64,000 nt of DNA from Robiginitomaculum sp. (GTDB lineage Bacteria > Pseudomonadota > Alphaproteobacteria > Caulobacterales > Maricaulaceae). Location: NCBI GenBank assembly GCA_021776565.1, contig JAJFFQ010000059.1:1-64000 (forward strand), given 5' to 3'. Below are positions 3,081 to 63,050 of the stretch, one piece after another (position 1 is the first letter of the stretch; every line of letters begins with the position of its first letter). Both the position numbers and the translations under genes were made by a program. The notes beneath the pieces were generated by a model, which worked only from the letters and a program-made list of their open reading frames with translations, was not told where the DNA came from and made no database searches.

Positions 3081-3115
3081 TCCCTCAAATGCCCCTTATT
3101 GTCTCTTACTTACTG

Positions 3116-3194
3116 GTGCTATCGCGACGGTAAACCGTGGCTATGAGCACGTGATTCTTGTGCTATCGCGACGGTAAACCGTGGCTATGAGCAC
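3116..3194. repeat. Two identical 35-bp palindromic repeats
   Basis: A 35-bp unit starting GTGCTATCGCGACGGT and ending GGCTATGAGCAC occurs twice without a mismatch, at 3116-3150 and 3160-3194, separated by 9 bp. Each unit is an imperfect palindrome centred on ACGGTAAACCGT with GTGCT/AGCAC ends. The 9-bp gap and two copies argue against a CRISPR array. Confidence 0.8.
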
Positions 3195-46592: not shown

Positions 46593-48104
46593 TTACGGAT
46601 TGGGTGAGAACTGCACGGCGACCGAGGTTGAACCACGAATTTTACCGGCACTATCAACAAAATCGACAAATACGCGTTTACCAGCCGGATCAAGCGCGAT
46701 GGCCTGGCCGGAACTTCCGAAAACTGAAAGTGTTCTGGCAACATCTTTTTCAAACACCACAACAACGTTGCTTGCTGGCGGATTGATACAGGCACCGCCC
46801 GCCTGTCCGGTGGTGTCACAAATATTGAGAACCAGCGGTGAAGTAAAGTTTGTGCGCGGCGTTACTGTTATGGTGTCCTGCGCGCCTATATTAACCCCGG
46901 CAAGGGCAAATGCGCCTGCTCCTGTGTCCGGTGCAAGGGTGAGAATGCCATTGTTTTGCACTGTGGCCGCATTGGTGATGATGTCTGGAACAGGCACTGT
47001 TGAGGCCGAAAATCCAAGCGTGTTGATGCCCACAAAAACACTGGCCGGGCTGGTGTTGTCACAATCAAACAAAAACTCCACGTCCTGATCCGGGAATGGT
47101 CTTTGGCTTGTGTTGAAAAATTCGGGCCGGGCGGTCAGGGACAGGATAAAGCTCTGAAATCCGCCAGATGCTATGTTAATGGTGGTATTGGCGTTGCCAA
47201 TGGGCTGGTTGGTGGCTGGATTGGTGGTTTGAAAGGTAAAATCAGCCGGCAGCGGGCTGGCCAGTGAAACCCCGCAATTGCTGGCTTCTGTTGTCGCAGC
47301 ATTGGCGATGATGGCAAAAAATGTGGCAACAGTGTCAAATAATACGGATCGCGTGCCAGGCAAAACCGAGGCAGAGAGCGTGTCAAACTGTATAACAGGC
47401 TGAAAATTACCGACAATGGTGATCGGGGCAAACCCGGCCTTGTCATCGGCATCATCAGTATCAGGATCAATGGAAGTAAAGGTCATGCCAACCGTTTGCA
47501 CCCCTGCGGTATTACCATGAGTGAACAGGCCAGTGCGCAGACCAAAGGTGATATTGCTGTTAAACCCGGCTGTGGCTGTGGTTTGATCTCCATCACCGCC
47601 AAATGGTGCGGTTACACGCACCAAATGTACCTCGCCATTGCCGCCGGTATGTACGATTTTTGGTTCAAGTGCTTCTTGAAAAATACCGTTCAAATTGCTG
47701 TCAACGAAGGCATTGTTCTGGTCAATGGCAAAAATTGGCAAATAACGATCTATGGCTGTTGTACCTGTAAAATCAAACCCGTATGCCCCGATCAGCGTGC
47801 CCGCACCAAAGCGGTCAAAACCGTTGAATACAATATCAGTGGGCAGGGTGTTGCCTGCGCTGAAAATTTCGCGCTGCCCGGTAGTAAACTGTGACTGAAC
47901 AATGAAACCAAAATCAGCACCGGGTGCCAGACTGCTCAGGCGTATGTCAAAAACGGCTGGTGTATCAAAAGGAGCGTTTTCACCGTTTTGTGGTTTGCCA
48001 AAAACGATAGGAGCGTCCTCAGTACTCTTTCCTTCCAGGCAAGACGCAAGCAGGGTTGTTGCAAGTAGTGCGAGGGTAATGGTTGTTTTTGGTCGTGTTG
48101 CCAT
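46593..48104 (-). CDS. Predicted lipoprotein, paralogue B of a tandem pair
   Basis: A 503-residue exported lipoprotein (lipobox LASC, Cys about 22) rich in Thr, Asn, Gly and Asp and probably all-beta. It shares with the next gene upstream blocks such as FNGFDRFGAG, GAYGFDF, DRYLPIFA, DSNLNG, APFGGD-DQTTAT, TSIDPD and ICDTTGQAGGACI-PP, and ends KIRGSTSVAVQFSPNP. The two have equal length, so they arose by tandem duplication. CTTGQAGG-type motif is seen in secreted proteins of other alphaproteobacteria, but I know no function. Acidic DPDTDDADD could bind Ca. Confidence 0.78.
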   Translation of the reverse strand: MATRPKTTITLALLATTLLASCLEGKSTEDAPIVFGKPQNGENAPFDTPAVFDIRLSSLAPGADFGFIVQSQFTTGQREIFSAGNTLPTDIVFNGFDRFGAGTLIGAYGFDFTGTTAIDRYLPIFAIDQNNAFVDSNLNGIFQEALEPKIVHTGGNGEVHLVRVTAPFGGDGDQTTATAGFNSNITFGLRTGLFTHGNTAGVQTVGMTFTSIDPDTDDADDKAGFAPITIVGNFQPVIQFDTLSASVLPGTRSVLFDTVATFFAIIANAATTEASNCGVSLASPLPADFTFQTTNPATNQPIGNANTTINIASGGFQSFILSLTARPEFFNTSQRPFPDQDVEFLFDCDNTSPASVFVGINTLGFSASTVPVPDIITNAATVQNNGILTLAPDTGAGAFALAGVNIGAQDTITVTPRTNFTSPLVLNICDTTGQAGGACINPPASNVVVVFEKDVARTLSVFGSSGQAIALDPAGKRVFVDFVDSAGKIRGSTSVAVQFSPNP

Positions 48105-48113
48105 TTTTCTTGG

Positions 48114-49625
48114 TTAAAATCCAGGATTGTAAGTCAAGGCAACCGAGGTTGAGCCACGTATCTTGCCCAGATCATCGGTGAAATCAAGAAAAACGCGACT
48201 GTTCAACGGATCCAGCGGGATGGCTGGTTGATCCGCATCGGCCACGAAGAAAATCGAATAGGTGCTCGATTGACCGGCACCATAAGGCATCATAATTTGG
48301 GGTGCTGGTGGATCAATGCAGGCACCGCCCGCCTGTCCGGTGGTGTCACAAATTGACAGGGTTAATTTCGAGTATGCCATGGATAGGCGTGGTTTTACAG
48401 TGATATGCGGGTCAGCGGCCCCAATGTTTACCGCAGCAGCAGCCATGGCGGCGGTACGGGTATTCGGGTCGATGGTCAAGATGGCAGTTCCTGACGGTTC
48501 TTGCAGGGTCGGAATTATATCTGTTTGTGGGTCGTTGGCATATGACAGACCAAATGTGTTGATACCAGGGAATGCACTGGCGGCAACATTGTTGTCACAT
48601 TCATACAGAAATTCCACCTGACCATCAGGAAATGATTGTTGGGCAGCGCCCAGGAATTCCTTTTGTCCCTTGATAGCAACAACGAATGACTGGGATGTTC
48701 CCGGTGCAATGTCCACTGGTGTATTCATCGGGCCGTTGGGCAGGTTGGTGGCCGGATCTGTGGGAGTATAGTCAAGGTGTGCGGGCAAGGGCGATGCCAG
48801 CATAATCTGGCAATTGGTTGCGCTCAGTGTGCCAGCATTCAGGATTGAGGCAAAATGGGTACTGGTTGTGTCAAAGGAAAGATTGCGAAACAGTGGCAGG
48901 GCAGAAGCAAAAACTGTATCGGGTCTAATCGGCACATTGGTTATGGCATTGAGAACAATAGGTGGGTCGCCGGCATTGTCATTTTCATTGTCATTGTCAG
49001 GATCGATTGAGGTAATATCGCTGGTTATGACGTGATTTCCTGCGGTAGTAGGGTTGGTTAAAATTCCGGTACGAAATCCGGCAGCGATGTTGGAACTAAA
49101 CTGGGCTGTGGCCGTGGTTTGGTCTGCATCGCCGCCAAAGGGCGCAGTAATAGCAATCCAGATACCGCCTCCAGACCCCATTTGGTGTTCAATTCTTGGC
49201 TCTATATCCGACTCGTATGTTCCATTAAGATTGCTATCGACATAGGCAAGGTCACGATTCACAGCGAAAATAGGCAAGTAGCGATCAATCGAATCATCAC
49301 CCGAAAAATCAAAGCCATATGCGCCTATCTTGGCACCAGCGCCAAATTTATCAAACCCGTTGAAGGTATATTCTCCGGGTATTGATATTTCGGCAGAATG
49401 GATTTCGCGCTGACCAGCGGTCATTTTTGTTTTTAGCGTGTATCCGGTGTCAGCACCGAGTGCATAACTTGTAAAATTTATCAGATAAATCAGTGGGGCC
49501 AGAAAGGGCGCGGCAGCACCGCCAATGGGTGTTCCCGTTTTTAATGCACCAATAATTTCAGAACATGAGGATAACGAAATTGTTGCAAAAATGGTAATCA
49601 GAAATATTCGCAATGACTTTATCAT
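48114..49625 (-). CDS. Predicted lipoprotein, paralogue A of a tandem pair
   Basis: A 503-residue lipoprotein (lipobox LSSC, Cys about 21) paralogous to the gene 9 bp downstream on the same strand. It keeps FNGFDKFGAGAKIGAYGFDFSG, described here as the most conserved block, and ICDTTGQAGGACIDPP and the ending KIRGSTSVALTYNPG. Acidic DPDNDNENDNAG could bind Ca. About 36 bp around the ICDTTGQAGGACI codons are identical in both copies although flanking sequence has diverged, hinting at strong constraint or gene conversion. It is the first gene of the pair, and its promoter should be in the 287-bp gap before ftsB. Confidence 0.78.
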   Translation of the reverse strand: MIKSLRIFLITIFATISLSSCSEIIGALKTGTPIGGAAAPFLAPLIYLINFTSYALGADTGYTLKTKMTAGQREIHSAEISIPGEYTFNGFDKFGAGAKIGAYGFDFSGDDSIDRYLPIFAVNRDLAYVDSNLNGTYESDIEPRIEHQMGSGGGIWIAITAPFGGDADQTTATAQFSSNIAAGFRTGILTNPTTAGNHVITSDITSIDPDNDNENDNAGDPPIVLNAITNVPIRPDTVFASALPLFRNLSFDTTSTHFASILNAGTLSATNCQIMLASPLPAHLDYTPTDPATNLPNGPMNTPVDIAPGTSQSFVVAIKGQKEFLGAAQQSFPDGQVEFLYECDNNVAASAFPGINTFGLSYANDPQTDIIPTLQEPSGTAILTIDPNTRTAAMAAAAVNIGAADPHITVKPRLSMAYSKLTLSICDTTGQAGGACIDPPAPQIMMPYGAGQSSTYSIFFVADADQPAIPLDPLNSRVFLDFTDDLGKIRGSTSVALTYNPGF

Positions 49626-49912: not shown

Positions 49913-50248
49913 ATGACACGCTTCAAACGTATGTTGCCAGTGGCCGGGTTTGTCTGGGTAATGATATACTTTGCCTATCATGCCTTCACCGGCGATCAGG
50001 GCTTGCCCAGTTTAACGATCTATCATCAGCGCGAACAGGTTCTTGTTGGGCGGCTTGCCCAATTGCAAAACTGCCGCGCATCATTTGAAAAACGAATTCA
50101 GCTATTAAATGACCACAGCCTGGATCTGGATTATCTGGAAGAACGTGCACATACGGTTCTTTATCTTGCCGATGTCAGGGATGTTATCTTGCCCTTGAAG
50201 GCGACAACAGAGCCAGAGCAGCAAAACGGCCAAAACTGCTCACAGTAA
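49913..50248 (+). CDS. ftsB: Cell division protein FtsB (septum formation initiator)
   Basis: The 111-residue product has one transmembrane helix (about 8-24, FVWVMIYFAYHAF), a coiled coil (REQVLVGRLAQLQNCRASFEKR) and the conserved LDLDYLEERAHTVLYLADVRDVI. FtsB forms the FtsQBL divisome complex. ATG 49913 fits; ATG 49889 (119 residues) is also open with GAGGCGG just behind it. An open frame reaching 49613 overlaps the lipoprotein gene and is not needed. Position before pdhA is typical. Confidence 0.9.
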   Translation: MTRFKRMLPVAGFVWVMIYFAYHAFTGDQGLPSLTIYHQREQVLVGRLAQLQNCRASFEKRIQLLNDHSLDLDYLEERAHTVLYLADVRDVILPLKATTEPEQQNGQNCSQ

Positions 50249-50367
50249 GACTGTTCGATCCGGCTTTTTTGCAAGACAGCCCTGCACACATTATCATGGT
50301 GACTTGTAGAGGCAAAATCCCTGCGCTAGAACCATAGTCATGCTTAATTTAATTCACGTGTGAAATA

Positions 50368-51390
50368 ATGGCGAATAGACCCAAAAATAAAACCCCATCA
50401 AAGAGCCGGGTACCCGGCAAAACCAAAAAGGAAGAAATGCTGGATTATTACCGGCAAATGCTGCTGATCCGGCGCTTTGAAGAAAAGGCGGGCCAGCTAT
50501 ATGGCATGGGCCTGATTGCCGGATTTTGCCATCTGTATATCGGCCAGGAGGCCGTGGTCACGGGCATGAAAGCGGCGCTCAAGGACGGTGACCAGATGAT
50601 AACCGGGTATCGGGATCATGGTCATATGCTGGCGCTGGGCATGGATGCTGCGGGCGTGATGGCCGAACTGACGGGTCGGGCCGGGGGCTATTCAAATGGC
50701 AAGGGCGGCAGTATGCACATGTTCTCTGTCGAGAAAAATTTCTATGGTGGTCATGGCATTGTCGGGGCGCAGGTGCCGCTTGGCACAGGATTGGCTTTTG
50801 CCAACCAGTATAAGGAAAACAACGCGGTTAGCCTGACGTTTTTTGGTGATGGGGCGGCCAATCAGGGTCAGGTTTATGAAAGTTTCAACATGGCCAAGCT
50901 GTGGGATTTGCCCGTAGTGTTTGTCATTGAAAACAATCAATATGCCATGGGAACATCTATCGAGCGTTCATCATCAGAAACCCATTTATACAAACGCGGG
51001 GCCAGCTTTGGTATTCCCGGTATAGAGGTGGATGGCATGGATGTTTTGGCGGTGCGCGATGCCGGTCTTAAGGCCGTAAAACATGCGCGTTCCGGCAAGG
51101 GGCCAATGATTCTTGAGATGAAAACCTATCGATACCGGGGCCATTCCATGTCTGATCCGGCCAAATATCGCACCCGTGAGGAGGTAGATGGCGTAAGGCA
51201 GCATCATGACCCGATCGATCATGCCAAGGCGCGGCTGCTCACGGAGAAATGGGCAGATGAGGCGACCTTGAAGGATATAGACAAGGCCGTTCGCGGTGTG
51301 GTCAGTGATGCGGCAGATTTTGCACAAACCAGTCCGCTGCCGCCGGATAGTGACTTGATGACTGATATTCTGGCTCCGGGAGTAGTGTAA
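50368..51390 (+). CDS. pdhA: Pyruvate dehydrogenase E1 component alpha subunit
   Basis: The 340-residue E1-alpha decarboxylates pyruvate with E1-beta using thiamine diphosphate. It has QMLLIRRFEEKAGQLYGMG, the HMFS region GSMHMFSVEKNFYGGHGIVG, the TPP motif GDGAANQGQVYESFNMA-LW-LP-V-V-ENN and the phosphorylation-loop-like YRGHSMSDPAKYRTREE. The ATG at 50368 is preceded by a weak ribosome binding site. The start of the hypothetical gene overlaps the stop by one base (TAATG). Confidence 0.97.
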   Translation: MANRPKNKTPSKSRVPGKTKKEEMLDYYRQMLLIRRFEEKAGQLYGMGLIAGFCHLYIGQEAVVTGMKAALKDGDQMITGYRDHGHMLALGMDAAGVMAELTGRAGGYSNGKGGSMHMFSVEKNFYGGHGIVGAQVPLGTGLAFANQYKENNAVSLTFFGDGAANQGQVYESFNMAKLWDLPVVFVIENNQYAMGTSIERSSSETHLYKRGASFGIPGIEVDGMDVLAVRDAGLKAVKHARSGKGPMILEMKTYRYRGHSMSDPAKYRTREEVDGVRQHHDPIDHAKARLLTEKWADEATLKDIDKAVRGVVSDAADFAQTSPLPPDSDLMTDILAPGVV

Positions 51391-51788
51391 TGCGTGTGAC
51401 CTATCAAAAAACCATAATGGCGGTTTGCGGCTTTATTATGCTGTTTTGCGCGCCTGCGAGGGCAGTTGCCGGCAAAGTGAGCGGCGAAAAAGTCAAACCG
51501 GAGATGAAATATAAAATCAGCGAATGTGAAAGGCCGGATAATCCCAAAATCAAGGGCGATACCCTTGAAGAGTATAATGCCTCGGTAAAGGCCTATGAGG
51601 TCTATATGTCCGCGCAAAATGTTTTTGCAGACTGTGTTGAGCGCGAAGTAGGCACAGATATGAAGGCATTGCAGGAAATAGTTTTTGTTGGCGGTCAAAG
51701 CGCCATTGCCGAATCACAACGCGATATAGACAAGATCAAACATGAGCTGGATTTTCTGCGCTCGCACCTGGTAAAGGCCGGACAATGA
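51390..51788 (+). CDS. Small exported helical protein within the pdh operon
   Basis: A 132-residue protein with a signal peptide (about 1-27) and a helical mature part containing two Cys (ISECERP and FADCVER) and a coiled-coil C-terminus (ESQRDIDKIKHELDFLRSHL). It overlaps pdhA by one base and lies 43 bp before pdhB, so it is co-transcribed. No family recognised, and nothing ties it to the cytoplasmic pyruvate dehydrogenase complex. Confidence 0.7.
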   Translation: MRVTYQKTIMAVCGFIMLFCAPARAVAGKVSGEKVKPEMKYKISECERPDNPKIKGDTLEEYNASVKAYEVYMSAQNVFADCVEREVGTDMKALQEIVFVGGQSAIAESQRDIDKIKHELDFLRSHLVKAGQ

Positions 51789-51831
51789 CCAGTTGTGGTT
51801 GCCCTATAGTTGGAATGAAAGTTAACTAACA

Positions 51832-53205
51832 ATGCCAACGCAAATACTCATGCCCGCACTCTCCCCAACCATGGAGGAGGGTACCCTGGCCAAATGGCTG
51901 GTGGCTGAGGGCGACACGATCCGTTCGGGTGATGTGATAGCAGAGATTGAAACCGACAAGGCGACCATGGAGGTTGAAGCGGTTGATGAAGGCATAATGG
52001 CAAAAATTCTTGTGCCGGGCGGCAGTGAGAATGTGGCGGTAAATGCCCTGATTGCCATTCTGGCCGAGGAGGGCGAGGATGTGTCTGCACTGGAGAGTTT
52101 TGATGTAGTGGCTTTTCCTCCCCTGCTTGCGGGGGAGGTGACCGCGAAGCGGTCGGAGGGGGGAGATTCTCCTGAGCTACAAATCATCCAATCTGATCCA
52201 GACCTTCCCCAAGGCACAGGCATGGTTCAGGTTACACTGCGCGATGCCTTGCGTGACGCCATGGCCGAGGAAATGCGCCGCGATGACAAGGTATTTCTTA
52301 TGGGTGAGGAGGTGGCCCAGTATCAGGGTGCCTATAAAGTCAGTCGTGGGTTATTGGAAGAATTTGGCCCCAGAAGGGTGATTGATACACCGATTACCGA
52401 ATACGGTTTTGCCGGGCTTGGGGTAGGGGCTGCCTTTGGTGGTTTGCGCCCGATTGTCGAGTTCATGACCTTTAACTTTGCCATGCAAGCCATTGACCAC
52501 ATTATAAATTCAGCTGCCAAGACACGGTATATGTCGGGTGGACAAATGTCCTGCCCGATTGTGTTTCGAGGCCCCAATGCAGCGGCCAGCCGGGTGGGCG
52601 CACAACACAGTCAGGATTATGCCCCCTGGTATGGCCATGTGCCGGGACTGATCGTGATTGCGCCCTATAATGCCTCGGATGCCAAGGGATTGCTCAAAGC
52701 AGCCATTCGTGATCCCAACCCCGTTGTGTTTCTGGAACACGAACTGATTTACGGCGAAACATTTGACGTGCCGGATGTGGATGACTGGGTGTTGCCCATT
52801 GGCAAGGCGCGTATTGTGCGCTCCGGCGCTGATGTAACCATCGTCACCTATTCGCGCATGGTTGGCTTTGCCCTGAAAGCGGCTGAAAAGCTGGCGGCAG
52901 AGGGCATTGACGCGGAAATTGTTGATTTGCGCACTATCCGGCCACTGGATATGGAAACGGTACTGCAATCGGTGCGTAAAACCAACCGTCTGGTTACGGC
53001 AGAGGAATCCTGGGGGTGTATGGGCGTGGGGGCAGAGATCGCCGCTGCCGTTACCATTGGTGCCTTTGATTATCTGGATGCCCCGCCGGCCCGCGTGCAT
53101 CAGGTTGAAGCGCCATTGGCCTATGCGGAAAATCTGGAAGCTCTGGCCTTGCCGGGCGCAGACGATATTGTCCGCGCCGCCAAGGGTGTGTGTTATGCCC
53201 GATAA
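51832..53205 (+). CDS. pdhB: Pyruvate dehydrogenase E1 beta subunit with N-terminal lipoyl domain
   Basis: The 457-residue subunit has a lipoyl domain (about 1-80; lipoyl-Lys in [12 protein letters not shown], about 44), a linker (about 90-125) and the E1-beta transketolase domain from [21 protein letters not shown] partner motifs include [38 protein letters not shown] and [14 protein letters not shown] lipoyl domain on E1-beta is an alphaproteobacterial trait. Residues 96-112 ([17 protein letters not shown]) are the translation of a palindromic repeat found also in pdhC and between genes, see repeat entries. GFA gene overlaps the stop by 11 bp. Confidence 0.97.
52117..52163 (+). repeat. CCTCCCCTGCTTGCGGGGGAGG palindrome inside pdhB
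   Basis: The unit begins CCTCCCCTGCTTGCGGGGGA and continues with ACCGCGAAGCGGT and GGAGGGGG, so it contains two nested hairpins. It shares its first 24 bases with copies at 53976 (pdhC) and 59671 (intergenic). It is in frame with no stop, encoding 16-17 linker residues. Confidence 0.9.
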
Positions 53206-53596
53206 GGCCTCTGTATATGAGTGGCACGATGGTGCTTGCCATTGCGGTGCAGTGCGTTTTGCGGTCGCCCTTCCGGATGATATTACGGCCCATGAATGTA
53301 ATTGTTCACTGTGCAAAAAAGTTGGTTTTTTACACCTGATTATTCCCAAAGACCGCTTCACAATCAAAGAGGGCGAAGACCATCTAACCGATTATCGGTT
53401 TAATTCTGGCGTCGCGAAGCACTATTTTTGTAAAACCTGCGGCGTGAAGGCATTTTATGTGCCGCGTTCAAATCCCAATGGGTGGTCAGTCAATTTGCGC
53501 TGTCTTGACCGCACAGAATTCACCAAAATTACCATAGAGCCGTTTGACGGTCAGAACTGGGAAGCCAACGCAGATACATTGGCCCATCTGGCATAA
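53195..53596 (+). CDS. GFA family zinc protein (CENP-V/GFA)
   Basis: A 133-residue protein of the glutathione-dependent formaldehyde-activating (GFA/CENP-V) superfamily, with the zinc Cys motifs CHCGAVRF (about 15), [10 protein letters not shown] (about 36) and [11 protein letters not shown] (about 80). Members bind zinc and some react with glutathione adducts, but most are uncharacterised. ATG 53195 overlaps pdhB by 11 bp and follows AAGGGTG. The gene is inserted between pdhB and pdhC, an unusual place. Confidence 0.88.
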
Positions 53597-53606
53597 GGAA
53601 CAAGCC

Positions 53607-54881
53607 ATGCCGATCAAGATACTCATGCCCGCTCTTTCGCCCACCATGGAAGAGGGAACCCTGGCCAAATGGCTGGTGAAAGAGGGCGATACCATCCGTT
53701 CCGGCGATGTCATCGCCGAGATTGAAACCGACAAGGCGACCATGGAAGTTGAGGCGGTTGAAGAAGGTGTGTTGGCTAAAATCATGGTTCCCGGCAATAG
53801 TGAAAACGTCGCCATCAATACGGTCATTGCGCTTTTACTGGAAGACGGCGAAGATGCGTCTGCACTGGATGGCTTTGATGTTAGTGCAAGTTCCAAAGAC
53901 AATAGCCCCTCACCCCAACCCTCTCCCTCCCCAAAGCAAAGAGGGGCAGAGGGAGAAAAAGAAGATGTCCCTGTTCCTCCCCTGCTTGCGGGGGAGGTGT
54001 CAGCAGAGCTGACGGAGGGGGGAAATCGCATCAAGGCCTCACCGTTGGCCAGGCGTCTTGCCAAAGAGGCCGACCTTGATCTTGCCAGTATTACCGGCAC
54101 TGGCCCCAATGGCCGTATTATCAAACGCGATATTGAAAGCGCCCCGGCCAGAGGTGCTGCTCCTCCTGGCGCACAGCCACCGCAAGTCCCGGGTGGTTAT
54201 GATCTCGTTCCACTTGATGGGATGCGCAAGGTAATTGCGGCGCGCATGACAGAATCATTTCGTGATGTGCCTCATTTTCCATTGACCATTGACTGCCACC
54301 TTGATGCGCTGCTCAGCGCACGCAAAGCCATCAATGAAGCCGCCGCAGATGACGGGATAAAAATCTCGGTCAATGATTTCATTATCCGCGCTTGTGCGCT
54401 GGCATTAAAGAAAGAACCCGCCGCCAATGCCAGCTATACGCCCGAGGGTTTTAGAAGCTGGCATGATGCAGACATTGCCGTTGCTGTTGCCATTGATGGC
54501 GGCCTGATTACCCCGGTGGTCAGGCAGGCGCAGCATAAAGGCCTTGCGGCCATATCTGCTGAGGTCAAAGATCTGGCAGTTCGTGCCAAGGCTCGCAAAC
54601 TCATGCCCGAAGAATACCAGGGCGGCACCTTCACGGTGTCCAATATGGGGATGATGGGTATTAAATCCTTTGCCTCGATCATCAATCAGCCTCAAGGCTG
54701 TATCATGTCAGTTGGTGCTGGCGAAAAACGCCCCGTGGTCATCGGTGATGAGTTGGGCATTGCCACCCTGATGAGCGTAACGCTAACCTGCGACCACCGG
54801 GTTGTGGATGGGGCCATCGGCGCGTCATTCCTTAAATACTTCAAACAGTTTATCGAAAACCCGGCGATGATGTTGCTGTGA
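53607..54881 (+). CDS. pdhC: Pyruvate dehydrogenase E2 (dihydrolipoamide acetyltransferase)
   Basis: The 424-residue E2 has one lipoyl domain (about 1-80, [12 protein letters not shown]), a linker (about 95-150), the peripheral-subunit-binding domain (SPLARRLAKEADLDLASITGTGPNGRI, about 147-173) and the catalytic domain ending with CDHRVVDGAIGASFL (catalytic His in DHRVVDG). The lipoyl domain is nearly the same as that of E1-beta. The linker contains two translated palindromic repeats: residues about 100-117 (SPSPQPSPSPKQRGAEGE) and 124-140 ([17 protein letters not shown]). The ATG at 53607 follows AAGGAAC. Confidence 0.97.
   Translation: MPIKILMPALSPTMEEGTLAKWLVKEGDTIRSGDVIAEIETDKATMEVEAVEEGVLAKIMVPGNSENVAINTVIALLLEDGEDASALDGFDVSASSKDNSPSPQPSPSPKQRGAEGEKEDVPVPPLLAGEVSAELTEGGNRIKASPLARRLAKEADLDLASITGTGPNGRIIKRDIESAPARGAAPPGAQPPQVPGGYDLVPLDGMRKVIAARMTESFRDVPHFPLTIDCHLDALLSARKAINEAAADDGIKISVNDFIIRACALALKKEPAANASYTPEGFRSWHDADIAVAVAIDGGLITPVVRQAQHKGLAAISAEVKDLAVRAKARKLMPEEYQGGTFTVSNMGMMGIKSFASIINQPQGCIMSVGAGEKRPVVIGDELGIATLMSVTLTCDHRVVDGAIGASFLKYFKQFIENPAMMLL
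53906..53955 (+). repeat. CCCTCACCCCAACCCTCTCCC palindrome inside pdhC
   Basis: CCCCTCACCCCAACCCTCTC followed by CCTCCCC and, after AAAGCAAA, GAGGGGCAGAGGGAG. The two sides can pair. It is in frame and codes for a Ser/Pro-rich linker. A related unit lies after lpdA at 58425-58471, and motifs of this type are common intergenic repeats. Confidence 0.8.
53976..54022 (+). repeat. CCTCCCCTGCTTGCGGGGGAGG palindrome inside pdhC
   Basis: Same orientation and frame as the pdhB copy. The second inner hairpin differs: TCAGCAGAGCTGA here against ACCGCGAAGCGGT in pdhB, so arms have changed together and pairing is kept. The intergenic copy at 59671 has TCAGCGAAGCTGA. Confidence 0.9.
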
Positions 54882-55387
54882 AAGATAAAGCTACAGAAAA
54901 AATATTTATATCCTTGATTGGATTTTTTATTTTAGCGTTTCTCAGCATAAGTTTAACCTTCTTCTTAAACGATATGCTTGACGCGTATCACGGCATCACA
55001 ATACCGGGTGGTGACGTTGAGGAACCTTATATTTTTCTCTTTCTGTGTGCGCTTTACGTATTGGCATTTTTTGGGTTCCTTATCGGTTATAATGGGTGGT
55101 TCAGTAGAACTGAGAATGATAAAAAAAGATGGTATCTAATAGTGGTTTTCGGCTCTTTATTGCCTGCCTACTACATATCAGCATCGTGGGTGCATGAGGG
55201 ATTGTCACTATCAACAATATCAGAGTTGGGGAGTAAGTTTTCTCAAGAAACTGCCAAGCAAGCCGCATTACGGTCACAGGCAATATTATTCTGTTTTTTC
55301 GTATTTCAGGCAACTTTTGGTATTTGGGTAGATGCGATGTTTAGAGTATTCAAGCCTATTGATACCGGGAAAAATGAGGCAAGATAA
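54878..55387 (+). CDS. Small integral membrane protein, unknown
   Basis: GTG 54878 overlaps the E2 stop codon by 4 bp (GTGA). The 169-residue product has four predicted transmembrane helices (about 10-30, 52-72, 86-105, 135-155). Base composition is more A/T-rich than the pdh genes around it, and it is followed by a repeat, so it may be a later acquisition. I recognise no family. Confidence 0.65.
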   Translation: MKDKATEKIFISLIGFFILAFLSISLTFFLNDMLDAYHGITIPGGDVEEPYIFLFLCALYVLAFFGFLIGYNGWFSRTENDKKRWYLIVVFGSLLPAYYISASWVHEGLSLSTISELGSKFSQETAKQAALRSQAILFCFFVFQATFGIWVDAMFRVFKPIDTGKNEAR

Positions 55388-55492
55388 AATGGGCATGGCA
55401 AATTTGCATAGCTATCCCGCACGCAGTCGCACTTGTGCGCCCGCATTAGGTACTTATGGTTTCTCACTTCTTCAATATGGTGAACCATTCCG

Positions 55493-55558
55493 CCCTCATG
55501 GTGAGCCTGTCGAACCATGTGGCCTTGTGCCCACCCTTCGACAAGCTCAGGGTGAGGG
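55493..55558. repeat. Dispersed TTCGACAAGCTCAG palindrome, copy 3
   Basis: CTCATGGTGAGCCTGTCGAA is followed after about 24 bp by the inverse TTCGACAAGCTCAGGGTGAG. It separates the A/T-rich membrane protein gene from marC. The ~185-bp gap holds nothing else recognisable. Confidence 0.8.
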
Positions 55559-55573
55559 AAGGGGGTTTTTCTG

Positions 55574-56215
55574 ATGGATATGGCCATGCTTGATCTTTTT
55601 ATCGCAACTTTTGTCACCCTGTTTGTAGTGATTGACGCGCTGGGCGTGGCGCCCATCTTTGCCACCCTGACCGCCGGTGCCAGTGCCGCGCACAGCCGAT
55701 CCATGGCCATTCGCGGAACGATTTATGCCAGTTTACTGTTGTTGGCCTTTGCCTTTGGTGGGGAATGGTTGCTCACCCGTATGGGGGTTAGTCTGGATGC
55801 CTTTCGCACGGCGGGCGGGCTTTTACTGCTTTTGATGTCTATTGAGATGCTTTTTGAAAAACGCCAGGCCCGACGTGAAACCCGCGCCGAAACCATGCTG
55901 GAAGATGATGACGGGCCAGAGGATATTTCCGTGTTTCCTTTGGCTATTCCGTTGCTTGCCGGGCCAGGCTCCATTGCGGCGGTGATGATTTTTATGTCGC
56001 AACAGCATGACCATCCCATGGCCCAGCTTGTGGTTGTCGGGGCTATGCTGGCAAATCTTCTGATTGCGCTGATACTGCTGCTGATCGCCCCCTGGCTGCT
56101 GCGGGTCATGGGACACACGGTTGGGGCGCTGATTACCCGGGTGTTCGGGGTCATTCTGGCAGCACTTTCGGTGCAATTGATTTTTGATGGCGTGAAAAAC
56201 GTCTTTTTTGCCTGA
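55574..56215 (+). CDS. MarC family integral membrane protein
   Basis: A 213-residue MarC/UPF0056 protein with six transmembrane helices. Family features include FVVIDALGVAPIFATLT, RTAGGLLLLLMSIEML and FPLAIPLLAGPGSIAAVM. Function unknown despite the historical link to multiple antibiotic resistance. Its stop overlaps the beginning of the open frame of the thioesterase, but with the GTG start used below there is a 10-bp gap. Confidence 0.92.
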   Translation: MDMAMLDLFIATFVTLFVVIDALGVAPIFATLTAGASAAHSRSMAIRGTIYASLLLLAFAFGGEWLLTRMGVSLDAFRTAGGLLLLLMSIEMLFEKRQARRETRAETMLEDDDGPEDISVFPLAIPLLAGPGSIAAVMIFMSQQHDHPMAQLVVVGAMLANLLIALILLLIAPWLLRVMGHTVGALITRVFGVILAALSVQLIFDGVKNVFFA

Positions 56216-56225
56216 TGGAAACTTT

Positions 56226-56999
56226 GTGAGCGAGATACACCATAAAGTCAGACTGGTTGATCTGGTGTTTCCGGATCAGACCAATCATCAAGGCGATATG
56301 TTTGGCGGTGCGGCGCTGGCCTTTATGGACAAGGTGGCCTTTCTGGCCGCCGCGCGTCTGGCCCGGCGCGGGTTTGTTACCGCCGCGGTTGAACGGATGG
56401 ATTTCAAAAGCCCGGTTCTGGTCGGCGAACTGGTTGACCTGACAGGTGAAGTACGCAGTGTCGGGCGAACCTCGATGAATGTCCGCGTTAGCCTGATGGC
56501 CGAGAACCTGCTCACCGGTGAACGCCGTCTGACCACCCAGGGTGATTTCATCATGGTGGCCAGTGATCGCAAAACCAACAAAACCCCCTTGCCACCGGTG
56601 CCGGATTATGCACCAGAGCCAAAGGGTGTGACCCGCACGGCGGAGCTGGTATTTCCAGGCGATACAGATCATCGCGGGCTATTGTTCGGGGGCCGGGCGC
56701 TGAACCTGATGGAAAAGGCCGCCTTTGTTGCCGCGTCTCGCCATGCCCGCACATCGGTGGTGATGGCGGCCTTGAAAGAGATAGACTTTGCTACCGCCAT
56801 CCATGTGGGCGAGATGATAGAGATCATCGCAAAAGTGGTCAGCGTTGGCCGCACCTCCATGCGTGTTGCTGTGCGGCTCTGCGCCGAGGATTTGCAAACC
56901 GGGGAGCGTCGCCAGGCCACAATAGGCGAATTTATTATGGTGGCGCTTGGGGGTGATGGTAAACCGGCCCCCGCACCATCGTTAAACGAGGAACAATGA
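56226..56999 (+). CDS. Acyl-CoA thioesterase with two hotdog domains
   Basis: The 257-residue protein has two tandem hotdog domains of the acyl-CoA thioesterase (YciA/BFIT) group: VFPDQTNHQGDMFGGAALAFMD in the first, described as the key region, and VFPGDTDHRGLLFGGRALNLME in the second, each followed by V(G)RTSM. It would hydrolyse fatty acyl-CoA to free acid. GTG 56226 follows GGAAACTTT; TTG 56208 overlaps marC. It lies 1 bp before lpdA and is probably co-transcribed with it. Confidence 0.88.
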   Translation: MSEIHHKVRLVDLVFPDQTNHQGDMFGGAALAFMDKVAFLAAARLARRGFVTAAVERMDFKSPVLVGELVDLTGEVRSVGRTSMNVRVSLMAENLLTGERRLTTQGDFIMVASDRKTNKTPLPPVPDYAPEPKGVTRTAELVFPGDTDHRGLLFGGRALNLMEKAAFVAASRHARTSVVMAALKEIDFATAIHVGEMIEIIAKVVSVGRTSMRVAVRLCAEDLQTGERRQATIGEFIMVALGGDGKPAPAPSLNEEQ

Positions 57000-57000
57000 T

Positions 57001-58416
57001 ATGAGTGTGCAAAATTTTGATCTTGTCATTATCGGTGCTGGCCCCGGCGGCTATGTGGCGGCAATCCGGGCCTCGCAACTGGGTCTAAAAACCGCAATTG
57101 TCGAGCGCGAACACCTGGGCGGCGTTTGCCTCAATTGGGGCTGTATTCCCACCAAGGCGCTGTTGCGCTCTGCCGAAGTGTTTGAACTGATGGAAAATGC
57201 CAGTGCCTACGGCCTTAGCTGTTCAAAGCCCGATTTTGATCTGGGTAAAGTGGTAAAACGCTCGCGCCAGATCGCCGGGCAACTATCCGGCGGTGTCAAA
57301 TATCTGCTCAAAAAGCATAAAGTGACCGTCCTGGATGGCGAAGCGCGGCTGGAGAAAGGTACCAAAGCCCCAACAGTCATCGTGCGGGATAACGCTGGCA
57401 AAGACAGCACGTTCACCGCCGCACATGTTATTCTGGCCACCGGGGCGCGGGCGCGCACCATACCGGCGGCTGGTCTGGCCCCCGAAGGCAAGTTTATCTG
57501 GACGGCCAAAGAGGCCATGGTGCCGGACGTGATGCCCAAATCTCTGCTGGTTATCGGCTCTGGTGCCATCGGCATTGAATTTGCGTCGTTTTATAACGCT
57601 CTTGGTGCCGAGGTAACTGTGGTGGAGATGCTGGACCGGGTATTACCGGTCGAGGACGCTGAAATCAGCGCACTGGCACAAAAAGCGTTTGAAAAATCCG
57701 GGATGAACATCCTCACCTCTGCGCAGGTGAAGAGCGTAAAGCCCGGAAAAGATACCATCACCGCCAGCATCAAGACCAAGGACGGCAAGGTGCAAAGCAT
57801 AGTGGCGGAGCGCATCATTCTGGCCATTGGCATTGTCGGTAATGTCGAAGACCTCGGCCTTGAAAGTTTGGGCGTTAAAACCGACCGCAGCCACGTGGTC
57901 ACAGATGAATTTTCGCGCACCAATGTGGTCGGGCTTTATGCCATTGGTGATCTGACCGCGCCGCCCTGGTTGGCCCACAAGGCCAGTCATGAAGGGGTGA
58001 TTTGCGTTGAAAAAATCGCCGGTAATAACCCGCACGCGCTTGACCATGGCAATATACCCGGCTGCACTTATTGTCGCCCGCAAGTGGCCTCGGTCGGCCT
58101 CACCGAAGCCGCCGCCATCGATGCCGGGCATAGCGTCAAAGTGGGCCGCTTCCCGTTCATGGGCAATGGCAAGGCCATTGCGCTGGGTGAACCCGAAGGC
58201 CTCATCAAGACGGTATTTGACGCCAAAACCGGTGAGCTGCTGGGCGCGCACATGATCGGCACCGAAGTGACCGAGCTTATTCAGGGTTATACCGTCGCCA
58301 GAACGCTGGAAACCACCGAAGCCGAACTGATGGAGACCGTGTTCCCGCATCCGACGCTCTCGGAAATGATGCACGAAAGCGTGCTGGACGCCTATGGCAA
58401 GGTGATCCATGTTTAG
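57001..58416 (+). CDS. lpdA: Dihydrolipoyl dehydrogenase (E3)
   Basis: The 471-residue flavoprotein reoxidises dihydrolipoamide with NAD, completing the pyruvate dehydrogenase complex. FAD motif DLVIIGAGPGGYVAAIRAS, redox disulfide GGVCLNWGCIPTK (about 39-51), NAD motif VIGSGAIGIEFASF and the catalytic HPTLSEMMHE dyad are all present. Other complexes (2-oxoglutarate, branched-chain) could also use it. A palindromic repeat follows and may end the transcript. Confidence 0.97.
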   Translation: MSVQNFDLVIIGAGPGGYVAAIRASQLGLKTAIVEREHLGGVCLNWGCIPTKALLRSAEVFELMENASAYGLSCSKPDFDLGKVVKRSRQIAGQLSGGVKYLLKKHKVTVLDGEARLEKGTKAPTVIVRDNAGKDSTFTAAHVILATGARARTIPAAGLAPEGKFIWTAKEAMVPDVMPKSLLVIGSGAIGIEFASFYNALGAEVTVVEMLDRVLPVEDAEISALAQKAFEKSGMNILTSAQVKSVKPGKDTITASIKTKDGKVQSIVAERIILAIGIVGNVEDLGLESLGVKTDRSHVVTDEFSRTNVVGLYAIGDLTAPPWLAHKASHEGVICVEKIAGNNPHALDHGNIPGCTYCRPQVASVGLTEAAAIDAGHSVKVGRFPFMGNGKAIALGEPEGLIKTVFDAKTGELLGAHMIGTEVTELIQGYTVARTLETTEAELMETVFPHPTLSEMMHESVLDAYGKVIHV

Positions 58417-58424
58417 GGTTTCTT

Positions 58425-58471
58425 CCTCTCCCCTTCTTTGCTTTAGGAAGGGAGAGGATCGAGGTGAGGGG
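58425..58471. repeat. CTCTCCCCTTCTTTGCT palindrome after lpdA
   Basis: CCTCTCCCCTTC and GAAGGGAGAGG pair across TTTGCTTTAG, followed by ATCGAGGTGAGGGG. Related in sequence to the repeat at 53906 inside pdhC. A stem of about 11 bp just after lpdA could serve as a terminator or message stabiliser. Confidence 0.7.
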
Positions 58472-58557
58472 ATATGGCATAGCAAAATTAACTGCTGACC
58501 CGTCAAATTTTGTTGTTTTCAATAGACAAGTAATAAGTGATTATCTATAGCTTTACT

Positions 58558-58860
58558 ATGACGGAGCGTATCTCAACTATAAAATTTCTCGACCTTGGTT
58601 TTGGCGGCCTGTTCAAGATTGTATTTTGGGCATCCATACTACCATGGTTATTCGTAGTAATGCTTTGGGTTCTTTTTGCTTTTCTTGATCCAGAAAGAAT
58701 AACAATGTTCGGGGTCAAATTAAAAACAACGGCTGACGCCTTAAAAAACTTGCCGATTGCCTTTGCCTTTGTATTGGGACAAGCAGCATTTACAGGCTTT
58801 GCAGGGGCAGGAATGCTTAGAATATTTGGTAAATATCTGCCGTTAGGCAATTTGAATTAA
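58558..58860 (+). CDS. Small two-helix membrane protein, unknown
   Basis: ATG 58558 gives 100 residues with transmembrane helices at about 15-40 and 68-88. It contains FKIVFWASILPWLFVVMLW and AFTGFAGAGMLRIF. A GTG at 58537 is also open. It is A/T-rich for the window and sits directly before the next lipoprotein gene (3 bp), so they are probably a pair. No family recognised. Confidence 0.6.
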   Translation: MTERISTIKFLDLGFGGLFKIVFWASILPWLFVVMLWVLFAFLDPERITMFGVKLKTTADALKNLPIAFAFVLGQAAFTGFAGAGMLRIFGKYLPLGNLN

Positions 58861-58863
58861 GGT

Positions 58864-59568
58864 ATGCGTTGCCTCATCGTCATGGCCTTGAGCTTTATCC
58901 TTTATGGCTGTTCTTCATCAGATGAACAGACACGCTCGTGCTTTTTAGCTTTGCCCCGCACCTATGATGAAGGTACGGCCTGTCATGCCTTGATGGAAGA
59001 TTACGCGAGCCTGGTGGACTACGAAAAACTGGAAACATCGAAAGCCGCAGGTATAGACGTGCTTTTCTTATATATAGGAAAAATCAGTGTACAGACGCGG
59101 AGCCTACGCGCTAATTTTGAGGCTGTGCACGATGTGTGCGGCGTCTTGGTCACGACGTCTATGCTGAATGAATATCAGTATTTTCAACAAACCAACCAGA
59201 ATAAGAGCGAGAGCCTGCCTCAGTATGATGAAGTTGTCTATCAAGCCTCAAAACACGCAACATGCCGCTATTCGGGCTCAGAAATATCAATAATTTTGAC
59301 AAACTCGGCAATTTTGCTGCGTCCGCGCATAAATGATAAGCGCCTGTTTGCAGCATTGACAGAACACTACCAGTCCATGGCAGACATGCAGCAGGGTATT
59401 CTGTCCTGTCCTGTGATTTTCATGTTTGTTTATATGAACGTGTCGGTGGTTAAGTCATCCAATCTTGGCGGCGTCATCGCGCAAAAAATTCATTCCTGCC
59501 TGTCGGATGAGCCGGATCCATTGAAAAGGAAAGCGATGATATCTGTGCTTGATAACATGACGTTATAA
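58864..59568 (+). CDS. Predicted lipoprotein of unknown function
   Basis: A 234-residue lipoprotein with a short signal and lipobox LYGC (Cys16), then CSSSDEQT. The mature part has six or seven Cys and no recognised domain. It is probably co-transcribed with the small membrane protein upstream. Composition is less G/C-rich than the flanking core genes. Confidence 0.65.
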   Translation: MRCLIVMALSFILYGCSSSDEQTRSCFLALPRTYDEGTACHALMEDYASLVDYEKLETSKAAGIDVLFLYIGKISVQTRSLRANFEAVHDVCGVLVTTSMLNEYQYFQQTNQNKSESLPQYDEVVYQASKHATCRYSGSEISIILTNSAILLRPRINDKRLFAALTEHYQSMADMQQGILSCPVIFMFVYMNVSVVKSSNLGGVIAQKIHSCLSDEPDPLKRKAMISVLDNMTL

Positions 59569-59606
59569 GGTGACCTTACGCCTGTGGCAGGGTGATTCAT
59601 GTTTAG

Positions 59607-59718
59607 GAAGCCCCCCTCAGACCGCTACGCGGCCAGCTCCCCCGTGTACTGAGGAGCAAAACAAGTCTTTCCTCCCCTGCTTGCGGGGGAGGTGTCAGCG
59701 AAGCTGACGGAGGGGGCT
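59607..59718. repeat. Full-length CCTCCCCTGCTTGCGGGGGAGG element between genes
   Basis: AAGCCCCCCTCAG at the left is matched by the right end GGAGGGGGCTTT; inner blocks ACCGCTACGCGG, then TCCTCCCCTGCTTGCGGGGGA and TCAGCGAAGCTGACGG form further hairpins. The core at 59671-59716 is the same repeat that is translated in pdhB and pdhC. It touches the hemB stop codon and may terminate transcription from either side. Confidence 0.85.
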
Positions 59719-60738
<1,020 letters not shown>

Positions 60739-60751
60739 CTATCAGGGTAAA

Positions 60752-60805
60752 GTACAATCCGAAAAGTGGAAACCGGTTTTCGGTTAAATTGCCGGTTTAT
60801 TGTAC
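60752..60805. repeat. Nested palindrome in the hemB-acd promoter region
   Basis: CCGAAAAGTGGAAACCGGTTTTCGG (60759-60783) has inverted arms CCGAAAA/TTTTCGG; sequence of this kind is a frequent dispersed palindrome in Rhizobiales and relatives. It sits inside larger arms GTACAAT (60752-60758) and ATTGTAC (60799-60805). Either could also be an operator for one of the divergent genes. Confidence 0.6.
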
Positions 60806-60848
60806 AACAGAAAAAGCTAATTCCATCAAGCATGAAAGGGCAAGAAGC

Positions 60849-61988
60849 ATGGACTTCACCCTTAGCGAAGAACAAAGACTGATAAAGGACATGGCGGCGG
60901 GGTTTGCCACCGATAAATTGCGCCCAAATGCTGCCAAATGGGATGAGGAGAAAGTTTTCCCGGTCGAGGTCATGCGCGAAGCAGCGGCCCTTGGCTTTGC
61001 CGGCATTTATGTGGGCGAGGAACATGGTGGCTCTAACCTTAGCCGTCTTGATGCGGCATTGATCTTCGAGCAATTGTCCATGGGCTGTGTGGCAACGGCG
61101 GCCTATCTGTCCATTCATAACATGGCTTCCTGGATGATCGACACCTATGGTAATGAGGATCAGCGTAACCGTTGGCTGCCGGGCCTGATGAGTATGAAGT
61201 TTGTTGCCAGTTATTGCCTGACCGAACCCGGTTCCGGCTCTGACGCGGCGGCCTTGCGCACCAAAGCGGTGCGCAACGGCGACCATTATGTGCTTAATGG
61301 CACCAAGGCGTTTATTTCTGGCGCAGGGGTATCAGACATTTATGTGGTGATGGTGCGCACCGGCGAGGCTGGCCCCGGCGGTATTTCAACATTTGTGGTG
61401 GAAAAGGGAACACCAGGGCTTTCTTTTGGGGCCAATGAGCGCAAAATGGGCTGGAATTCCCAGCCCACTGCGTCGGTAATTTTTGAAGACTGCAAGGTGC
61501 CGGTAGGCAATCGCCTTTCTGAGGAAGGGGTGGGTTTCAAAATTGCCATGTCGGGCCTTGATGGTGGACGTATCAATATCGGTTCTTGCTCACTGGGCGG
61601 AGCGTCCGAGGCACTGTCACTGGCTAAGGATTATATCGCCACCCGCACCCAGTTTGGTAAACCCATCGGGGCATTTCAGGCCAGTCAGTTCAAAATCGCC
61701 GACATGGCTACCGAGTTGGAGGCCGCCCGCATGATGCTCTATCGCGGCGCAGCGGCGATCGATGCCAATGACCCGCAAAAAGGAAAATACGCTGCCATGG
61801 CCAAACGCTTTGCCACCGATGTTGGCTTTAAGGTGGCCAATGACGCGCTGCAATTACATGGCGGGTATGGCTATTTGAAGGATTATCCGCTGGAGCGCAT
61901 TGTGCGCGATCTGCGGGTGCATCAAATTCTTGAAGGCACCAATGAAATTATGCGTGTTATTATCGCCCGTCATGAATTGGGTAGGTAG
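60849..61988 (+). CDS. Isobutyryl-CoA dehydrogenase-like acyl-CoA dehydrogenase
   Basis: A 379-residue FAD enzyme. ATG 60849 starts MDFTLSEEQR. Features are YCLTEPGSGSDAAAL, WNSQPTASVIFEDC, GGYGYLKDYPLERIVRDLRVHQI and the catalytic-base Glu in LEGTNEIMR, the pattern of short-branched/isobutyryl-CoA dehydrogenase. It would convert isobutyryl-CoA to methacrylyl-CoA in valine breakdown, supported by the next two genes. It abuts the following gene with no gap. Confidence 0.93.
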   Translation: MDFTLSEEQRLIKDMAAGFATDKLRPNAAKWDEEKVFPVEVMREAAALGFAGIYVGEEHGGSNLSRLDAALIFEQLSMGCVATAAYLSIHNMASWMIDTYGNEDQRNRWLPGLMSMKFVASYCLTEPGSGSDAAALRTKAVRNGDHYVLNGTKAFISGAGVSDIYVVMVRTGEAGPGGISTFVVEKGTPGLSFGANERKMGWNSQPTASVIFEDCKVPVGNRLSEEGVGFKIAMSGLDGGRINIGSCSLGGASEALSLAKDYIATRTQFGKPIGAFQASQFKIADMATELEAARMMLYRGAAAIDANDPQKGKYAAMAKRFATDVGFKVANDALQLHGGYGYLKDYPLERIVRDLRVHQILEGTNEIMRVIIARHELGR

Positions 61989-63050
61989 ATGACCAATACA
62001 GACTCTGTAATTGTCCGCGATGAGGGCCGCATTGGTCGCTTGACGCTCAACCGGCCAAAGGCGTTAAACGCGCTTGATCTGGATATGATCCGGATCATGA
62101 CCAAGGCTCTGTTGGACTGGCGTAATGATGACAATATCGCCGGAATTGTGGTGGATGGAGCCGGGGAAAAAGCATTTTGTGCGGGCGGCGATATTCTGGC
62201 GCTGACCGGGGATCGCACGGACGATCAAGCCTATCCACGCATGTTCTACGCCGAAGAATATCGCCTGAATACACTGATAAAAGAATACCCCAAGCCTTAT
62301 GTTGCCATGATTGATGGTATTGTCATGGGCGGCGGCGTTGGCATTTCTATGCATGGTGCGCGCCGCATTTGTGGTGATCGCACATTGTTTGCCATGCCAG
62401 AAACCGGGATCGGGTTTTATCCTGATGTTGGGGGAACGTATTTTCTGCCTCGCCTTGAGGGTAAACTTGGCATCTGGTTGGCCCTGACGGGTGCACGACT
62501 GAAAGCGGCAGACGTTTTTTCGCTTGGCATTGCCACAGATTACGCCCCGTCCGATCAGCATGAGCAGATCATTGCCCGCCTGGTCGAGGATACGCGAACG
62601 CCAGCAGATATGGGTGAAATTATCGATAGCCTGACCGGTCGCCCGGGTGCGGGCCGTGTTCCGCTTGATCTGGTTAATCAGACCTTTGCCGCCGATACCG
62701 TGGAAGAGATTATAGAAGCTCTTGAATATGATGATGGAGAGTGGGCCAGGGCACAAAAAAAATTCCTGATGACGAAATCCCCTATGGCTTTGAAAGTCAC
62801 CTTGCGCCAAATGTACGAAGGGGGAAATATGAGTTTTCGAGCCTGTATGTCTATGGAACTGGGTCTTAGCCTGAAATTTGTATCCGGGGATGATTTTGCC
62901 GAAGGCGTGCGCGCTTTGCTGGTTGATCGTGATAACGCACCATTGTGGAAGCCTGCAAAACTTGGGGATATAAGCGAGATGAATGTTGCCACCTATTTTG
63001 TGCCATTGGTGCAGGAACAGCGCCTGACATTTTTTGACGAGGAAAATTGA
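61989..63050 (+). CDS. 3-hydroxyisobutyryl-CoA hydrolase
   Basis: A 353-residue enoyl-CoA hydratase-superfamily member. GAGEKAFCAGGDI, MIDGIVMGGGVGISMHG and MPETGIGFYPDVGGTYFLPRL identify the hydrolase branch (HIBCH), which frees 3-hydroxyisobutyrate from its CoA ester. Length is as expected. ATG begins directly after the dehydrogenase stop, and the stop is 1 bp before mmsB, so translation is coupled. Confidence 0.94.
   Translation: MTNTDSVIVRDEGRIGRLTLNRPKALNALDLDMIRIMTKALLDWRNDDNIAGIVVDGAGEKAFCAGGDILALTGDRTDDQAYPRMFYAEEYRLNTLIKEYPKPYVAMIDGIVMGGGVGISMHGARRICGDRTLFAMPETGIGFYPDVGGTYFLPRLEGKLGIWLALTGARLKAADVFSLGIATDYAPSDQHEQIIARLVEDTRTPADMGEIIDSLTGRPGAGRVPLDLVNQTFAADTVEEIIEALEYDDGEWARAQKKFLMTKSPMALKVTLRQMYEGGNMSFRACMSMELGLSLKFVSGDDFAEGVRALLVDRDNAPLWKPAKLGDISEMNVATYFVPLVQEQRLTFFDEEN

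Follow-up and report, generated by a model that had tools for sequence, protein, structure and literature searches.

In a 64,000-nucleotide stretch of the genome of Robiginitomaculum sp. (contig JAJFFQ010000059.1, positions 1 to 64,000; hereafter the window), a short palindromic repeat, here called family A, lies in frame in the inter-domain linkers, or swinging arms, encoded by two pyruvate dehydrogenase genes, pdhB (E1-beta) and pdhC (E2). It is probable that mobile palindromes of this kind land widely in the genome and persist in disordered linkers between domains as long as the reading frame is kept open; DNA of the repeats thus seems to have been built into functional proteins. The original prediction, made from the letters of the window alone, had proposed that such palindromes are tolerated in flexible arms. 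This proposal is now well supported by the absence of the pdhB copy from the sister genome, the genome-wide dispersal of the repeat, and the presence of other palindrome families in the same linkers, each in a single phase per orientation.

The family A palindrome in pdhB and pdhC

The 20-bp core of family A, CCTCCCCTGCTTGCGGGGGA, has three exact matches in the window, at the positions originally predicted (52117 in pdhB, 53976 in pdhC and 59671 beside the hemB stop codon), and no match in 100 shuffles. The alignment of the three copies spans 56 nt, in which the identity to the pdhB copy is 86% for one and 80% for the other of the remaining two. The copy in pdhB (52114-52165, plus strand; core match, family model E value of 3.9e-17, and scan of open reading frames (ORFs)) forms two hairpins and encodes PdhB residues 95-112, and that in pdhC (53973-54024, plus strand; core match, model E value of 5.8e-16, and phase scan) encodes PdhC residues 123-140 and abuts the E3-binding domain. 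The ORF translations bear out the predicted common reading frame, in which both copies encode PPLLAGEV-(T/S)A---EGG. The copy at 59671 has a second family A unit beside it in the opposite orientation, and together they make up an inverted pair (59609-59719, from unit matches and the ORF; units at 59609-59660, minus, and 59668-59719, plus), which ends at the stop codon of hemB (ALAD; 59719-60708, minus strand; ORF and identity search). No Rfam family matched positions 50000-62000 of the window at the gathering score.

Both proteins have full domain sets. The ORF of pdhB (51832-53205, plus strand, 457 amino acids) encodes an N-terminal lipoyl domain (PF00364, residues 4-77) and transketolase domains from residue 133 (PF02779, 133-307; PF02780, 324-446), and pdhC (53607-54881, plus strand, 424 amino acids) encodes lipoyl (PF00364, 5-76), E3-binding (PF02817, 142-177) and acyltransferase (PF00198, 198-424) domains. 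A lipoyl-bearing E1-beta is normal in alphaproteobacteria, in line with the linker survey described below. The palindrome had been placed just after the lipoyl domain in both proteins; this does not hold for PdhC, where it adjoins the E3-binding domain and stands behind a second, different palindrome. The latter, family C (CCCCTCACCCCAACCCTCTCCC...; 53905-53958, plus strand, with an exact match at 53906, in phase 2), encodes SPSPQPSPSPKQRGAEGE in frame and has 14 matches with at most three mismatches in the genome of the window. The PdhC linker thus holds two unrelated palindromes, family C and then family A. Arms of E2 are flexible, and the AlphaFold2 model of PdhC (mean predicted local distance difference test (pLDDT) score of 77.3; 12 sequences) agrees with this: pLDDT is below 50 at residues 91-139, which include most of both palindromes, and such very low confidence is what a disordered stretch would be predicted to give.

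Presence and absence among relatives

The pdhB-pdhC region was compared in 16 relatives of the same genus and three other family members (genomes are given below as G numbers and loci as L numbers); G001 has no full pdhB, and pdhC of G009 was read in part. As a check, it had been proposed to align pdhB and pdhC from close relatives, and this proved informative: the sister genome, G017, whose PdhB is 89% identical, has a plain pdhB linker with no element. Therefore, either the insertion in pdhB of the window postdates the split from G017, or G017 has lost its copy. In pdhC, G000, G001 and G009 share the position of family A, and this insertion may be older. At that place, pdhC of G017 carries another palindrome, family B, followed by what appears by eye to be a worn end of family A. 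In the same sister pair, the number of OdhB lipoyl domains was also seen by eye to vary, with two in G017 and one in G000 (L214, L218).

Three palindrome families in the arms of related enzymes

Matches to families A, B and C, with at most 4 mismatches in 22 positions, were looked for in the ORFs of pdhB (16 genomes), pdhC (18 genomes, two partial), bkdB (branched-chain E2, 17 genomes) and odhB (2-oxoglutarate E2, 17 genomes, the G004 gene being a fragment that lacks the first linker). All 37 matches fell inside the linkers of pdhB, pdhC and bkdB. They come from ten of the 18 genomes (G000, G017, G001, G009, G003, G010, G006, G004, G002 and G012), and those in G002 and G012 look decayed, with a larger number of mismatches. 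Moreover, each family uses one codon phase per orientation (A+, 4/4; B+, 9/9; B-, 13/13; C+, 8/8; C-, 3/3). Two of the reversed-pattern controls gave no match, and the third gave one match in each of three genomes.

At a threshold of three mismatches, 35 of the 743 copies in the ten genomes lie within the 4638 bp of the three linkers, where 0.128 would be expected under uniform placement (family A was counted on the forward strand only in the genome totals behind the 743). When the copies were assumed to be confined to 12% of the genome, the single-genome P values ranged from 4.7e-3 to 2.7e-8. Since the matches share ancestry, these enrichment figures overstate the surprise.

Not all open frames of the palindromes are used. 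Family B has a stop in one frame per strand, and another of its reverse frames encodes the hydrophobic LILSLSK. The arms use only the family B frames LRQAQDE and HPELVEG, and the open frame FDKLRMR is never used. In family C, the arms use PSPQPSPQGEG, and PHPNPLPRERG is open and more hydrophilic, yet unused. The unused open frames of family A are overall no less hydrophilic or disorder-prone than the used one.

Dispersal of the palindromes in the genome

A family A model was built from 12 copies and used to search the 2.9-Mb genome. At least 74 matches were found at E ≤ 0.1, many of them as inverted pairs; this is a lower bound because 150 of 1417 first-look candidates were scored with the model. 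The whole-genome search, which had been suggested together with the original prediction, therefore reveals a dispersed two-hairpin family that lies mostly outside genes. For 67 of the 74 matches (seven short or overlapping ones were left out), spanning ORFs were sought that have at least 150 amino acids and extend 30 amino acids to either side of the match. No such ORF was found for 57 matches, and eight lie, in frame, inside five clear genes: pdhB and pdhC, with single units, and carB and the genes for the glycyl-tRNA synthetase beta subunit and a DNA methylase, with two units each in inverted pairs. Two further spanning ORFs are unconfirmed as genes. In the glycyl-tRNA synthetase beta subunit gene (L002, 627-2825, minus strand) and the DNA methylase gene (L011, 467-3022, minus strand), the inverted pairs are in frame.

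It had also been noted that the second hairpin changes both of its arms together. Over the 12 family A copies, 97.9% of the hairpin cells are paired compared with 90.9% in shuffles, and two-sided changes occur in 14 cells compared with 4.1 in shuffles (none of 500 as high), which confirms the claim, although the changes are confined to three pairs, a number reached by 131 of the 500 shuffles.

Family B (CCTTCGACARGCTCAGGATGAG) often lies within the first-hairpin loop of family A, as it does in 12 of 27 distinct sampled copies (counted by their flanks), as if palindromes inserted into palindromes. Such composites, with B within A, are found at L197 (701-774) and also at L184, L186 and L189. Thirty loci of the 85 family B matches were examined, which represent 29 distinct copies (L260 and L261 yielded a single copy); three short ORFs were found at these copies, none of them confirmed as a gene.

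Other lineages and CarB

A survey of 120 linkers from 75 of 80 named loci was used to look beyond the genus. Eight linkers appeared by eye or by pattern to bear palindromes (L018, L021, L027, L028, L042, L043, L045 and L079); the pattern also flagged L081 and L088, whose matches were short and were discounted. The genomes of seven of the eight (all but L042) were searched with two patterns. The pattern of a further family, D, has 22 matches in the L018 genome and 26 in the L043 genome, in each of which one match is identical to the linker copy. In the L028 genome, 14 forward and 11 reverse matches to an A-like pattern were found (some represent one place on both strands), two of them identical to linker copies. 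For L045, only two matches were obtained in the genome, and the linker copy has diverged too far for the pattern to match it. For the flagged linkers other than L018, L043 and L028, an origin from dispersed repeats is unproven. As a separate measure, folding compared with 20 codon shuffles each places L045, L018 and L043 in the top six of 159 linkers, and the values for L028 (-2.05) and L021 (-1.28) are weak. Family D is found in the arms of L018 (Parvularculaceae), L043 (Pseudolabrys), L045 (a metagenome-assembled genome of Hyphomicrobiales) and in pdhC of G012, in one phase in all four.

The linker between the two halves of CarB is also occupied. It could not be read in G012. A family A pair is present in G000, G004 and G001 (at most four mismatches), and inspection by eye shows a family D pair in G010, G003 and G017. 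In G006, G002, G007 and G009, the linker has 44-45 amino acids and contains neither pair, with no match to families A to C. The palindromes lie at L001 (1431-1549), L297 and L299 for the A pair and at L298, L300 and L301 for family D, and the three CarB copies of family D share a phase that differs from that in the arms. Because the identities of the flanks broadly follow the species tree, occupancy appears to change at the site itself, and horizontal transfer of carB as the cause of the patchy linker was rejected.

Interpretation and alternatives

On the explanation that we favour, family A would be a short palindrome of the REP (repetitive extragenic palindromic) or MITE (miniature inverted-repeat transposable element) kind, with two hairpins in about 50 bp, often in inverted pairs, and behaving as mobile DNA. 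Insertions that keep the frame open would be tolerated in disordered linkers between domains, most of all in the swinging arms of 2-oxoacid dehydrogenase subunits, and insertions in other frames and places would be purged. Because the linkers would tolerate such insertions, the same arms would be filled repeatedly by different palindrome families. The data directly show the dispersal, the gain or lack of copies from one relative to another, the confinement to linkers among the scanned genes and the single phase of each family in each orientation; from these we infer transposition, translation (from the open frames) and the filter of purifying selection. A bolder idea, which is possible but on balance doubtful, is that the E1-beta and E2 arms are evolutionary capture sites: the arm would have been largely rebuilt from successive mobile palindromes, each in one preferred frame, in several alphaproteobacterial lineages, and selfish DNA would be the source of sequence change in a disordered region that has a function, which it might also tune.

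Several points weigh against the favoured explanation. No family A, B or C match was found in odhB of 17 genomes; because its arms are also Ala/Pro-rich, disorder alone does not explain the choice of arms. Hydropathy explains the frame choice for family B, not for A and C, whose phase in the arms is not the most hydrophilic open one. The 37 arm matches are not independent and represent by eye roughly 14 separate events, the Poisson figures presume uniform and independent landing, and an element copied from one paralogous arm to another could keep its phase. In the four-gene tree, the ten element-bearing genomes group together with a support of only 59, and a smaller PdhB tree places the element-free G007 beside G000 and G017, so losses are possible. 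All 18 genomes of the genus are in several contigs. No target-site duplication was seen, the linkers being too diverged for junctions to show, and no family A, B or C match with at most six mismatches lies in the 4501 bp around the one Y1 transposase gene that was found. Mobilisation by this transposase was rejected, as no copy lies within 4.5 kb of it. The gene itself (L203, about 2340-2800) is preceded by its own inverted repeat, by eye unrelated to the three families.

The alternative that survives best, although unlikely, is adaptive recruitment, in which the palindromes would be linker cassettes kept for tuning the length, charge or flexibility of the arm. This idea would fit the finding that three arm genes are occupied again and again in ten genomes, that arms in distant lineages are occupied too, and that each family has a single phase. 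Moreover, linkers with elements are longer, by about 11 amino acids in pdhC (means of 62.3 and 51.6 amino acids with and without elements; 9 and 8 genomes, p = 0.006) and about 9 in pdhB (57.8 and 48.7; 5 and 11 genomes, p = 0.052). However, this contrast is confounded by ancestry, the lengths are within the range of other alphaproteobacteria (linker medians of 63 and 54, under a looser linker definition), and the bkdB lengths overlap (44-70 with elements and 43-67 without). The suggestion that the elements are used to lengthen the arms is thus left weak, the longer pdhC and pdhB linkers being what speaks for it. The empty odhB arms, the apparent decay in G002 and G012 and the insertions in CarB also argue against recruitment.

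Gene conversion between paralogous arms, spreading one insertion from pdhC to pdhB or back, is less likely again as the general cause. It is suggested for two relatives. In G003, the DNA of the pdhB lipoyl domain (L162) groups with pdhC in the lipoyl tree (supports of 97 and 85). In G004, the family C copies in the two genes have a common 11-bp flank, CAAAGCCCCAG, which is also present in pdhC of G002 and in none of 11 other G004 stretches, although a similar flank, CAAAGCCCGAT, lies beside one copy there (L292). In the window, by contrast, the lipoyl DNA of pdhB and of pdhC is each closest to its G017 ortholog (these pairs are without strong tree support), so a recent pdhC-to-pdhB conversion in this lineage is not supported. 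The two coding family A copies also differ in their flanks and second-hairpin arms, the pdhC copy being more similar to that at 59671. Of the two routes originally considered, conversion or independent insertion, the latter is accordingly favoured for the pdhB copy of the window, which G017 lacks, unless G017 has lost its own. The trinucleotide CAT before family B copies was considered as a mark of between-arm copying and rejected, as CAT also closes 10 of the 28 rows that sample copies elsewhere in the genome.

It is improbable that the hairpins are retained for a role in the mRNA, for example a ribosome pause between domains that would help the protein to fold. In favour of such a role, the mRNA of several arms has much stronger folding than codon-shuffled versions (z down to -7.3; 20 shuffles each). 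However, not all arms that carry elements are among the 40 best-folding linkers listed, G017 pdhC being one that is outside. Any palindrome gives strong folding, families of different structure are found in the same arms, and many relatives have none.

An assembly artefact is very improbable. Family A copies lie near several contig ends, so the repeat breaks assemblies, but both genes keep open frames and all domains, similar insertions are present in ten genomes, and a misjoin would be expected to involve repeats longer than these, of about 50 bp. The compositional bias of Pro/Ala-rich linkers might speak for chance or for convergence in codon use, but this is hardly credible and was rejected in view of the matchless shuffles, the near-zero reversed-pattern controls and the similarly biased odhB arms without any match.

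Relation to known palindromic repeats

Translated palindromes are already known, and it is the arms as a recurrent, phase-restricted sink that appear to be new in the literature searched. In the passages of PMC2229807 on Rickettsia palindromic elements (RPEs), these are described as 105-146 bp long, with terminal inverted repeats, and named Rickettsia-specific; they are intergenic and also in frame in conserved protein genes (19 reading frames reported), and an RPE-bearing guanylate kinase is reported to be translated and active. Family A resembles them, as described there, in being palindromic and inserted in frame in conserved protein genes. It differs in its unit of about 50 bp, against 105-146 bp, and in its location in swinging arms among the genes scanned, and in the PdhB tree (without supports, and built with no Rickettsia) the genus falls next to Maricaulis and Caulobacterales. 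The Rickettsia precedent named in the original prediction therefore holds as an analogy and not as family membership.

Among other repeats, the GTAG and CGTC REPs are described in the relevant passages of Di Nocera 2013 (PMC3733652) as small palindromes that are scattered through genomes, often as inverted dimers close to the 3' ends of genes. There are also intragenic ones, including in tRNA synthetases, recB of two Xanthomonas carries different REPs at about the same site, and neutral insertion in flexible linkers was proposed. Family A shares with these descriptions the dispersal, the inverted pairs and some intragenic copies, and differs in having two hairpins and no GTAG or CGTC tag. Its consensus (TTTCCTCCCCTGCTTGCGGGGGAGGTG...), compared by eye with the description given there, lacks a terminal tag of the CGTC type, AT pairs at the base of the stem and a CCA-like tail. 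GTAG REPs mobilised by RAYTs (REP-associated tyrosine transposases) are not matched either, as family A lacks the GTAG tag and no copies flank the one Y1_Tnp gene found. In the broad sense of a REP-like dispersed palindrome, with many short copies mainly outside genes and often in inverted pairs, family A does belong. The bacterial MITEs ERIC, RU-2 and Correia are, in the part of PMC2229807 that treats them, small non-autonomous elements of about 100-200 bp, some fused in frame to genes and several with terminal inverted repeats and target duplications; compared with this description, family A is smaller (about 50 bp).

The words dehydrogenase and acetyltransferase are absent from the main text of PMC3733652 (supplements not covered), and literature searches returned no report of palindromes in these swinging arms, with most subscription journals outside their coverage and one search dominated by unrelated papers. 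The arms represent a natural, repeated experiment on mobile DNA becoming protein. Because the same arms hold none, fresh or worn elements, with one phase per family, selection on disordered linkers becomes directly measurable, and this may help explain how such linkers change quickly in sequence while length and character are kept.

Other features of the window

Between pdhB and pdhC lies an ORF of the GFA family (53195-53596, plus strand; PF04828, E value of 4.5e-17). In addition, a 51-nt repeat is found at 46773-46823 and 48303-48353 (92% identical), one copy of it inside an ORF (48114-49625), and a 38-nt near-tandem repeat is found at 3113-3150 and 3157-3194.

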